From assembly GCA_003151815.1 (NCBI GenBank), contig PLYN01000045.1, positions 1 to 64,000 on the forward strand: a stretch of 64,000 nt of DNA, given 5' to 3'. The stretch's first letter is position 1, and each line of letters begins with the position of its first letter. Below are positions 46,799 through 50,766 of the stretch, in pieces. The notes under the pieces were generated by a model. It was not told the origin of the DNA, did no database searches, and saw only the letters and a program-made list of their open reading frames with translations. The translations under genes were made by a program, and so were the position numbers. The stretch is from Bacteroidota bacterium. GTDB taxonomy: Bacteria > Bacteroidota > Bacteroidia > 2-12-FULL-35-15.

Positions 46799-48055
46799 TT
46801 AATTATTCTTAAATAACCAATCTTCGGGATTAAACTTAATTTGTCCTTTCCATAATTCGAAGTGCAAAACAGTATTAGAGCCTTCTTCATCAAAAACGAT
46901 AGAAGCAATTTGTTGTTTTGTTTTAACTTTATCACCCACTTTAACATAAATTTCTTTAAGGTTCGAGTATATTGTCAAAAACTCACCGTGGCGGATTAAT
47001 ATAAATTTACCTGAGCCCGGCATATTTACAATCGCTTTCACCTCTCCATCAAAAACTGCACGCGCCAAAGATCCGGTGTTTGTTGTAATGTCGATGCCAT
47101 TATTATTAATATCAATATTAGGCATCAAGGGATGCGGATGAACTCCGAAACGTTCGCTAATAATGCCTTTTACAACAGGCCAAGGAAGCCTGCTTTTATT
47201 GCTGGCGAATGAATTGGAGAGTATTTGTGATTCAGGTGTTAAAATCAATCTTTGCGGTTTTTCTTTGTTCTCTTTTACAGCTTCATTCTGTGCTTTTTCA
47301 AGTTCTTTTTGAATTACCTGCAATATCGCTTGTTGAAATTTTTCTGCGTCGGCTTTCTTTTTCTTTAAGTCTTTTTTAAGTTTACTTTCTTGCTCCTGAA
47401 GTTGTGAAAATACGCGCTCTTTCTCGGTTTTTTCGGTTGATAGATTTTGTTTTTCAGCTTGTTCACTTGTCAGCAAAACACGCTGATCGGATTTTTTAGC
47501 TTCCAGATCCTGAATTTTTTGATTTAAAATAGCTTTCGTTTGTGTGATCAGTTCTGCTTGCTTATGGCGATAATCGCTATACTGCTGAAGATATTTTAAG
47601 CGCATAAATGCCTGTTGAAAATCATTGGAAGCAAAAATAAACATCAAGCGGCTATAAGCATTTTGATTTTTATATGCGTAATAAATCATTTTAGCATACT
47701 CCGCTTTTAATTTTAATAAATCGTTTTGCAGTTCATTAATTGCATAGTTGTTTTCATTTATTTGACGATTAAGCACCCTTATTTCAGAGTTGATAGTTGT
47801 AATTAACTCTTCACGCACACTTATTTTTTTATTTAATGTAACCAGTTGATTTAATGAAAGTCGTTTATTTTTTTTTGTTTCGTCAAGCAATTCATTGGTG
47901 TATTTTATTTCATTTTGTAATTGCTTCTTTTTGTTCTCTAAATATTCTTTGGATTGTTTTTGAGCAAACGAATTACTTGTATTCAGCAGCGCCAAACACC
48001 AAATCACGATGAAAGAAAGACACTTATTGTTTTTCTTTGTAAATAATTTGCTCAT
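46799..48055 (-). CDS. murein hydrolase activator, EnvC-like (degenerate M23)
   Basis: A 418-residue periplasmic protein: signal segment LSFIVIWCLALLNTSNSFAQ, a long coiled coil (about residues 30-265) rich in Lys/Gln/Glu and a C-terminal M23 fold. The zinc ligands are lost: HxGxD is NNGID, the YxHL-type His is Asn in TIYSNLKEI, and HxH is VLHFE. EnvC proteins keep this state and activate amidases rather than cut wall themselves. The last ATG overlaps the DUF4292 gene, so it is the final gene of that operon. Confidence 0.85.
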   Translation of the reverse strand: MSKLFTKKNNKCLSFIVIWCLALLNTSNSFAQKQSKEYLENKKKQLQNEIKYTNELLDETKKNKRLSLNQLVTLNKKISVREELITTINSEIRVLNRQINENNYAINELQNDLLKLKAEYAKMIYYAYKNQNAYSRLMFIFASNDFQQAFMRLKYLQQYSDYRHKQAELITQTKAILNQKIQDLEAKKSDQRVLLTSEQAEKQNLSTEKTEKERVFSQLQEQESKLKKDLKKKKADAEKFQQAILQVIQKELEKAQNEAVKENKEKPQRLILTPESQILSNSFASNKSRLPWPVVKGIISERFGVHPHPLMPNIDINNNGIDITTNTGSLARAVFDGEVKAIVNMPGSGKFILIRHGEFLTIYSNLKEIYVKVGDKVKTKQQIASIVFDEEGSNTVLHFELWKGQIKFNPEDWLFKNN

Positions 48056-48977
48056 AATTATTCGGAATTTTAAATGGGAAACTTTGTTCTTCGTTTAATT
48101 GAATTTTAGTATATACAATAGATATCTTAACATTTTTTTGAGCTTTAACACTAAAATTCATTTTTTGAGGAAACAATTGAGTTGAATCCAACTTTATGAA
48201 ATCATAAAAACCGGCATCAAAACTCCGCTCAGGATTAAATTCATAAAATAGGATACGAGAAATTTTATATGTTTCAGGAGTCAGATAAATGCTTTGTGCA
48301 GGCTCTTTCAATTCTTTTCCTTTTTCCATTACTCTGCGAAGCTTATATTTTCGGATGGTTCCAAGCGTATAATGACAATTACTATTGCCGGCTTTTATTT
48401 TTTCGTCCTCATCATAAAACTCAACACTATTACCTATCAATAATGATTGAAGCATTTCAAAATCCAACTGAGTGTTCAATAATTTGCTAATATATGAGAA
48501 GTCTCCTTTAAAATATTTATTATCGATGCGATTCATAAAACTTACAGAATCTCTAGTAATCAATATTCTAGCCCCTTCAATTCCTAATTTAGAAATTGAC
48601 ATCCAAATAATGCTATCTTTTTTCATGCGCAAAGAAGAGGTAAATGAATTAAAGGAGCTATCAATAACGGTTTCAATAGAGATCTTTGCATTTAACTTGT
48701 TAAAACGAAATTCATTTGATTTTAAATTTGCTGTTAGCGTTTTTGCATTTTTATAATCTAAATTACATCTTGTGGCAGCATGTGAGATTTTTTGTTGCTG
48801 TTTGCAGGAAGTAAGGAGAATTGAAAATAATAATAATCCCCCTAGCCCCTGTTTAAATGGGGAATAAAAAAGAAAATTTATTAATCTATTTTTAAATTTC
48901 GCATATTCGCAAAATCCCCCTAACCCCCTTTGCAAGGGGGAATAGAAAACAAAAAAATGAACAAAAGGATTATTCAT
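48024..48977 (-). CDS. DUF4292 lipoprotein with repeat-built signal peptide
   Basis: A 317-residue lipoprotein of the DUF4292 family (LolA/LppX-like fold probable): KISIETVIDSSFNSFTSSLRMKKDSIIWMSISKLGIEGARILITRDSV, then KISRILFYEFNPERSFDAGFYDFIKLD. The lipobox is LLTSC, but the Cys is residue 58, because two copies of a repeat (YSPLQRGLGGF at 12 and YSPFKQGLGGL at 38) lie inside the N-terminal region. No other in-frame ATG is present before the lipobox. It overlaps the TPR gene stop by eight bases (ATGAATAA) and the EnvC-like gene at the other end. Confidence 0.83.
   Translation of the reverse strand: MNNPFVHFFVFYSPLQRGLGGFCEYAKFKNRLINFLFYSPFKQGLGGLLLFSILLTSCKQQQKISHAATRCNLDYKNAKTLTANLKSNEFRFNKLNAKISIETVIDSSFNSFTSSLRMKKDSIIWMSISKLGIEGARILITRDSVSFMNRIDNKYFKGDFSYISKLLNTQLDFEMLQSLLIGNSVEFYDEDEKIKAGNSNCHYTLGTIRKYKLRRVMEKGKELKEPAQSIYLTPETYKISRILFYEFNPERSFDAGFYDFIKLDSTQLFPQKMNFSVKAQKNVKISIVYTKIQLNEEQSFPFKIPNNYEQIIYKEKQ
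48837..48866. repeat. C/G-rich palindromic repeat (copy 2), in the DUF4292 gene
   Basis: atcccccctagcccctgtttaaatggggaat, a degenerate copy with short arms. In frame in the signal peptide of the DUF4292 gene, encoding YSPFKQGLGG. Confidence 0.65.
48911..48944. repeat. C/G-rich palindromic repeat (copy 3), in the DUF4292 gene
   Basis: ccccctt (48924-48930) and aaggggg (48934-48940) with spacer tgc, preceded by tccccctaa. In frame; encodes YSPLQRGLGGF. Confidence 0.8.
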
Positions 48978-50766
48978 ACAGTTTTTTGTCAGCAATTTTT
49001 TTATCTATAAAATCAGATGTACCACCCGCTTTTTTGGCATCCATCCAATATTTTATTGCGTTTTCGATATCGTTAAGTTTGTATAATACATCACCATAGT
49101 GCTCCAGCAATGTTCCGTTATCACTTCCACCATTGGCAATTGCTTTTCCAATCCAAAGTTTCGCATCATCGTATTTTTTCATCTGATATAGAATCCAACC
49201 ATAAGTATCCTGATACGAACTGCTATTGGGCTCTATTTCTATACTTTTTTTAGACATCGCTTCCGCTTTTTCTAACTTAATATTTCGTAAGGATAAGTAA
49301 TAGGCAAAATTATTTAACACATAACTATTTTTAGGATCTAACTCTAAAGCTTTGTCATAAGCCGAATCAGAAGCTATATAGTTTTTCAATTGATTTTGGG
49401 CATCTCCCAAGTTTGCATAAAATTGAGAAAGGAACTGTTCGTTATCATAAACAAATTCTTTCCCTTCATTCAGTGAAGCAACAGCTGTATTAAAATCTTT
49501 AAGATGAATGTTGGCGGCTCCGTTTAAAAAATAAGGCAATGCCTGGTTTGGAAATAATTCCATTGCTTCCTTGCTTTCTTTTTGCATTGAAACGAAATCA
49601 TTTAATTCCGAATCAATAATCAACAGTTGATTCCAAAGAGCATACTTTTCCTTATCCAGTGTAATTGCTTTTCTGTATTGTATTCTGGCATCTTCTAATT
49701 TTTTATCTCGATATAAAAAATCTCCATAAATAGAAAATGCTTTAGCTTCATCGGGATGTACTTCGATAATTATTTTACATAATTCATCAGCATCTGATTT
49801 CAACTCAGCATACGTTTCGGTAATAGAATAATAAGATAAAAGAATTTTAACCTTCGTATTGATATCTAATTCTTTGCTTTTAAAAGCAATTTTTATTTCA
49901 TCAAATGCTTTATCCCTTTGGTGTTGATTTCGGTAATAATCGGCTAATGTTAAATGGGCGTAAGGATCTTCCGGATTTAATTTTAGTAAATCGTAATATG
50001 CTGCAAACGCTTTTTCGCTTTGTCCGTTACCCTGATATAATTCGCCCAATATGCCATAATATTTACCTTCTTTCGGAAATGTTTTAATTAATTTTTGCAC
50101 TTCGACTAAAGCTTTATCAAAATTATTTGTCGCCTTAAAAATTCTGATCTTTTGCATAGATGCATCATCAGTAACACCAACCCTTTTTTCTACTTCGTCA
50201 TACATTTTTATTGCTTCATTTGCTTTATTTAATACTAAATAAACATTTGCGATTTCATAATAATATTCAATATGATCAGGATATTCCTTCAGCAATTTTT
50301 GATACACGCTTATAACTTCCTGATACTGCTTATCTTCTTTTAAACACTCTATATAGAGCAATTGATACCATGTATTCTTAGGGTCGAGCTGCGCAGCCTT
50401 TTTACTATATATTAATGCGTTACGTTTATTGTTTTGAAATGCATAAATATTAGCCAACTCATACAACGTTGCTGCATTATTGGGGTTAATGCGTAAGGCT
50501 TGCAAAAAAAGTGATTCGGCCAGATCATAGTTTCCTAAAATTTTTTCTTTATTAGCATTAAAAAAATGGTATTCGAATTCAACTCTTTCTTTGTCAGATA
50601 AATGACTTCCATCAGCCCATTGTGAGTTTGTTGAATATTGTTTGGATTCCTTTCTATTCTCTAAATTTGTTCTTAATGTTTTGCATGCAGAAAAAGAAAG
50701 CATAGCAAGCACAACAAGTAAAAAACGAGTGCGAAACAAAGAAAAAGAAATATTAAAATTTTTCAA
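48970..50766 (-). CDS. TPR lipoprotein
   Basis: A 598-residue envelope protein. Signal peptide FLLVVLAMLSFSAC with lipidated Cys 28; then about twelve tetratricopeptide repeats (for example NAATLYELANIYAFQNNKRNALIYSKKAAQLDPKN, and DSAYDKALELDPKNSYVLNNFAYYLSLRN). It should act as a scaffold in the periplasm. Placed between the sugar nucleotidyltransferase and DUF4292 genes; no specific role known. Overlaps the next gene by eight bases. Confidence 0.87.
   Translation of the reverse strand: MKNFNISFSLFRTRFLLVVLAMLSFSACKTLRTNLENRKESKQYSTNSQWADGSHLSDKERVEFEYHFFNANKEKILGNYDLAESLFLQALRINPNNAATLYELANIYAFQNNKRNALIYSKKAAQLDPKNTWYQLLYIECLKEDKQYQEVISVYQKLLKEYPDHIEYYYEIANVYLVLNKANEAIKMYDEVEKRVGVTDDASMQKIRIFKATNNFDKALVEVQKLIKTFPKEGKYYGILGELYQGNGQSEKAFAAYYDLLKLNPEDPYAHLTLADYYRNQHQRDKAFDEIKIAFKSKELDINTKVKILLSYYSITETYAELKSDADELCKIIIEVHPDEAKAFSIYGDFLYRDKKLEDARIQYRKAITLDKEKYALWNQLLIIDSELNDFVSMQKESKEAMELFPNQALPYFLNGAANIHLKDFNTAVASLNEGKEFVYDNEQFLSQFYANLGDAQNQLKNYIASDSAYDKALELDPKNSYVLNNFAYYLSLRNIKLEKAEAMSKKSIEIEPNSSSYQDTYGWILYQMKKYDDAKLWIGKAIANGGSDNGTLLEHYGDVLYKLNDIENAIKYWMDAKKAGGTSDFIDKKIADKKLYE

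Follow-up and report, generated by a model that had tools for sequence, protein, structure and literature searches.

Palindromes that are translated as part of a protein were reportedly first described in Rickettsia in 2000 and are said to have been a curiosity since, and to our knowledge no enzyme that mobilises them is known. The classic case is the Rickettsia palindromic elements (RPEs), which lie in frame in unrelated housekeeping genes, where they are translated and tolerated (PMC10969869). Coding palindromes have also been named for Wolbachia and M. jannaschii, and the PARCEL repeats are palindromic coding repeats tied to lipoproteins and mobile elements (PMC2996958). REPs have been described inside ORFs, among them recB and tRNA synthetase genes, and REP-RAYT elements have been described as well (PMC3733652). 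DUF559, a domain that will recur below, is often found in Vsr-like nucleases according to a report on Caulobacter VsrA (PMC12907096).

The palindrome studied here (family A) resembles the RPEs in having many palindromic copies per genome, placed in frame in unrelated conserved genes. RPEs are about 150 bp long, whereas family A, found in Bacteroidota, comprises 31 bp made up of a hairpin and a half-site, a comparison made by description; unlike RPEs, palindromes here also bracket DUF559 genes. In this last respect they are reminiscent of REPs and REPtrons, where short palindromes flank a nuclease gene and many further copies stand alone, but RAYT is a Y1 HUH enzyme whose REPs are tagged GTAG/CGTC, and the partner here is a Vsr-like PD-(D/E)XK protein whose palindromes lack such tags. 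PARCEL repeats form tandem amphipathic domains, whereas family-A copies are mostly single short insertions. As with inteins and homing endonucleases, a nuclease domain is found in frame in conserved enzymes (MetH, LeuRS, IleRS); unlike inteins, the insert of about 140-150 codons has no splicing domain that we could see by eye and, with its palindrome-coded linkers, would stay in the protein. Caulobacter VsrA shares its Pfam domain with the DUF559 partner and has been proposed to act in mismatch repair, and the part of that source available makes no mention of a palindrome association (PMC12907096). The pairing of DUF559 or Vsr with repeats, palindromes or insertion was not found in a literature search of mostly open-access coverage, and we do not claim priority for it.

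The window, that is, the whole 64,000-nucleotide stretch of DNA that was analysed, contains two family-A copies within the signal peptide of a DUF4292 lipoprotein. The gene (48024..48977, minus strand; 317 aa) matches PF14125 (DUF4292) with an E value of 5e-46, its ATG (48977-48975) overlaps the stop of an upstream TPR protein gene (48970..50766, minus strand; TATGAATAA), and its end overlaps a downstream M23 peptidase gene (46799..48055, minus strand). As the preliminary description had stated, the lipobox LLTSC ends at Cys58 (residues 54-58, 48804..48818, minus strand; Cys codon 48806-48804), where it aligns to the SCK of relatives, and residues 12-22 and 38-48 are the translations of two copies of a palindrome family. 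Copy 1 (ATTCCCCCTTGCAAAGGGGGTTAGGGGGATT; 48913..48943, minus strand; 31 bp) encodes YSPLQRGLGG in the n-region and retains an intact hairpin, with a 7-bp fold of about -7 kcal/mol. Copy 2 (ATTCCCCATTTAAACAGGGGCTAGGGGGATT; 48835..48865, minus strand) encodes YSPFKQGLGG and is probably the older of the two, because its hairpin has decayed. The 31-base palindrome pattern matched once in the window and never in 100 shuffles. Exact matches to the 13-base core CCCCCTARCCCCY occur only at both copies across the whole window, and the core with mismatches allowed is not significant alone (0.68 expected by chance). A local 78-bp tandem duplication was rejected as the source of both copies, which differ at several positions and have flanks that match only in T-rich runs.

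The late position of the cysteine had been judged against a norm of about residue 20, a standard that does not fit this family. In the orthologue comparison that the preliminary description had called for, the lipobox Cys lies at residues 30-35 in 21 relatives (those whose lipobox was automatically readable) and at 23 in the nearest relative, G050. The excess leader consists of the two 31-bp copies; deletion of twice ten codons puts the Cys at residue 38 and leaves MNNPFVHFFVF-FCEYAKFKNRLINFLF-LLLFSILLTSC, a signal of normal lipoprotein type, from which we infer that both copies are later insertions into a normal signal. The earlier wording that the signal is built from repeats was thus overstated: it carries two translated copies, but a normal signal remains without them. 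The orthologues also support the claim that copy 2 splits the hydrophobic core. Copy 2 contributes a Lys and the GLGG stretch directly before LLLFSILL, and the core is weakened, not abolished. Both features of a bacterial lipoprotein, a hydrophobic core and a lipobox with Cys (LLTSC), are present, and the most hydrophobic 10-residue stretch near the Cys has a mean hydropathy of 2.47 (3.21 with the copies deleted in silico); since 2.47 falls inside the range of the relatives (2.24-3.83), the signal need not be damaged by the copies.

Whether the copies are translated depends on the start codon. The overlapping ATG is also where the gene begins in the relatives examined (TATGAATA or TATGAGTA), and it is conserved in the genus. 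The preliminary description had found no alternative start after the first copy, which is correct for the stretch between copy 2 and the Cys, where no in-frame ATG, GTG or TTG occurs, but an in-frame TTG does lie within copy 1 (codon 15, 48935-48933). Translation from that TTG would also include copy 2, which is therefore translated whichever ATG, GTG or TTG serves as the start, because none separates it from the Cys. An out-of-frame ATG further down (GAATATGCG) was rejected as the real start, its frame ending after seven codons. It is improbable that the repeats are confined to an untranslated leader, with the start at a downstream rare codon such as ATT or at the TTG of copy 1, although G050 starts some ten codons downstream of the usual position in the genus and several family copies in the window's own genome lie a short way before the start codons of other genes. 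In G050, a stop closes the frame of the overlapping ATG after six codons and the start has shifted; starts therefore shift in this lineage, and the ancestral start is not certain. Against an untranslated leader stand the conserved genus start at 48977, the entire 58-codon stretch being open despite AT-rich DNA, and the translation of copy 2 even from the copy-1 TTG; a non-ATG start past the repeats, which the preliminary description had named as the outcome that would overturn it, is likewise unlikely, with only rare codons such as ATT available downstream. Still less credence is due to the view that the gene is a decaying pseudogene in which both copies are neutral debris. The interruption of the hydrophobic core by copy 2 would suit such decay, but the ORF runs for 317 codons without a stop or frameshift, the mature domain is 76-80% identical to its nearest relatives (80% to G050), its end branch in the mature-domain tree (0.19 versus 0.16 in the sister) is normal and gives no sign of decay, and the signal hydropathy lies within the range of the relatives.

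The comparison with orthologues shows the in-frame insertions in the DUF4292 gene, and we consider it likely that they are independent arrivals of a 31-bp coding palindrome in the signal-peptide region of a working lipoprotein, the family being probably DUF559-mobilised. The gene may have tolerated them because the leader of this protein family varies over its first 35 residues and would need no more than a hydrophobic stretch ahead of the lipobox; the lengthened leader of 57 residues would still be processed.

Family A is spread across the genus, for which a set of 36 genomes was used that includes the window's own genome (G000, 76.6% complete). In total, 126 distinct copies were detected, with at least one in 19 of the 36 genomes and 15 in G000 by each of two patterns, while a reversed-pattern control across the genus genomes returned 0 matches. 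The column profile of the 126 copies ends sharply at 31 bases (AAT-C5-T(A/G)(G/C)-C5-TTT-NN-AA-G4/5-AAT) and contains neither a GTAG nor a CGTC tag; the unit consists of an outer hairpin (C5-TTT..AAA-G5), a three-base spacer that is mostly TAG, and a C5 half-site. By a count made by hand, about 28 of the 126 copies are in frame within ORFs of 150 or more codons, with 15 codons or more between the copy and each ORF end. The host genes (NCBIfam) include MurF, GcvP, YbeY, an IscS-like cysteine desulfurase, a PabB-like synthase, allantoicase and a RecB-like helicase, as well as PyrF, which has two tandem copies. In the RecB-like gene of G000, one copy occupies the site that is also filled in the G021 orthologue, and another lies further on. 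Family-A copies are read in several frames, and therefore the common factor is that the frame is kept, and not the peptide itself.

At the MurF site, family A is absent in nine of the 12 aligned genomes; the palindrome is found in G003 and G048, and eight genomes have no insert. The loop is also occupied by other sequences of this kind, namely three tandem palindrome-derived units of type QFPLGDLNVEKDNLNRESE in G049 (L348) and a different in-frame palindrome, CCTGCCCGAACTTCAGGCGGG, read as PARTSGG, in G000 (L352). The net gain at MurF is only 6 codons, so insertion may be accompanied by loss of adjacent bases, and no target-site duplication was established at the insertions. PabB was rejected as a gauge of insert length, its loop being variable with remnants in several species. 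In the PabB of G045 (L305), another small palindrome seems to have split a family-A remnant, as in a nested insertion.

The lead to DUF559 (PF04480) came from four family-A copies located at the ends of short ORFs. PF04480 matches above the curated cut-off are present in 31 of the 36 genus genomes, and at the DUF559 genes bracketed by family A the upstream copy is on the minus and the downstream copy on the plus strand in all eight cases, the nearest within 130 bp. Other DUF559 genes of the genus are bracketed by a second palindrome class (CCCCTCTCC..GGAGAGGGG). When a C4+..G4+ palindrome was sought within 200 bp on each side of a gene, both sides scored at 17 of 30 DUF559 genes in a phylum-wide sample and at 20 of 37 in the genus, compared with 10/314 and 3/271 control windows, respectively; the same test was negative at all PabB (0/30), DUF4292 (0/21) and Y1-transposase (0/10) loci. 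Most of the 13 phylum genes that fail it show partial or diverged palindromes when their flanks are read. A strict hairpin finder missed most of the phylum DUF559 palindromes, and the flanks were accordingly read directly and scored by the C4+..G4+ rule. The left and right palindromes of a gene are concordant in class in 51 cases and discordant in 2, and class changes 16 times on the DUF559 tree, compared with 40 in shuffles. Genomes with a family-A-flanked DUF559 gene also have more family-A copies (Fisher p 0.015), and this excess persists after the flanking copies are subtracted (Mann-Whitney p 0.008), both values ignoring kinship. G000 has two DUF559 genes, and the one examined (L250) has class-B flanks, not family A; its family-A nuclease is therefore missing from the assembly, lost, or was never present.

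DUF559 and its palindrome-coded linkers were also found in frame inside enzymes, namely MetH (two sites), LeuRS, IleRS, acetyl-CoA synthetase (acetate-CoA ligase) and PaaZ, and in three genomes (L370, L377, L385) coproporphyrinogen oxidase (HemF) has a DUF559 element as an in-frame fusion at its N-terminus. One MetH site occurs in a series of states: empty, with six residues and no insert (six genus genomes); with one palindrome standing alone (G050 and G012); with both palindromes retained but the element deleted internally (G008); and with a full insert of 144-157 residues (nine genus genomes). G000 has a 21-residue linker without a palindrome at this site. Read by eye, the MetH inserts consist of palindrome-coded linkers and DUF559 only.

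Two other accounts of how the palindromes spread need to be weighed. If they were ordinary REPs with a RAYT/Y1 tyrosine transposase as their mover, their association with DUF559 would be a neighbourhood effect; Y1_Tnp genes are indeed present in 29 of the 36 genus genomes, and REPs within genes were already known (PMC3733652). We nonetheless hold this to be improbable, given that none of the 10 Y1 loci has palindromes on both sides, that family-A copy number bears no relation to Y1 number (rho -0.08), that genomes without Y1 matches still carry copies (9 in G006, 6 in G010 and 5 in G044), and that the GTAG and CGTC tags are missing from the family-A consensus. Somewhat better placed, though still unlikely, is the view that DUF559 is not the mover and that homologous recombination between pre-existing repeats of other origin has spread them, since palindromes outnumber DUF559 genes and recombination between flanking repeats could explain the full and solo states of MetH. 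It sits poorly with the fixed orientation at DUF559, where the hairpins are outer and the half-sites point inward, and with both ends agreeing in class and co-clustering with the DUF559 tree.

On balance, the data are best read as coding palindromes that resemble the Rickettsia palindromic elements and are probably mobilised by DUF559. On the simplest account, DUF559, a Vsr-like PD-(D/E)XK nuclease, would recognise the hairpin and half-site of its own DNA and nick it there, thereby moving full elements (palindrome-DUF559-palindrome) as well as solo palindromes, so that the two would form a selfish pair in which palindromes spread with the nuclease or alone. Copies within genes would survive only if the frame is kept and the place is tolerant, as in loops, linkers and the variable n- and h-region of the DUF4292 signal peptide. 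Which way each site has changed is likewise a presumption of this scheme. The palindrome family is now paired with a candidate nuclease, with which both of its ends co-vary, and the in-frame entry of repeats into genes becomes directly testable, MetH showing four site states. For annotation, segments such as SPLxRGxGG and LTPNPSPKERG, and DUF559 domains within enzymes, are probably mobile insertions.

A broader proposal, to which we assign roughly even chances, is that DUF559 and its paired hairpin-TAG-half-site palindromes make up a class of protein-coding selfish elements that is widespread, with members in Bacteroidota, Cyanobacteriota, Deinococcota and Alphaproteobacteria, and that would enter essential enzymes and signal peptides in frame and be kept as translated linkers or whole nuclease domains with no self-splicing. 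Among eight plasmid loci from other phyla inspected by eye, those of Pseudanabaena, Picosynechococcus, Deinococcus and Sphingomonas showed two-sided palindromes, in several cases with the G5-CTA-G5 / C5-TAG-C5 layout, and others were one-sided or partial. 

A plasmid CDS of 4,866 bases in Pseudanabaena galeata (L440) contains an in-frame DUF559 with flanking palindromes that also lie within the CDS.
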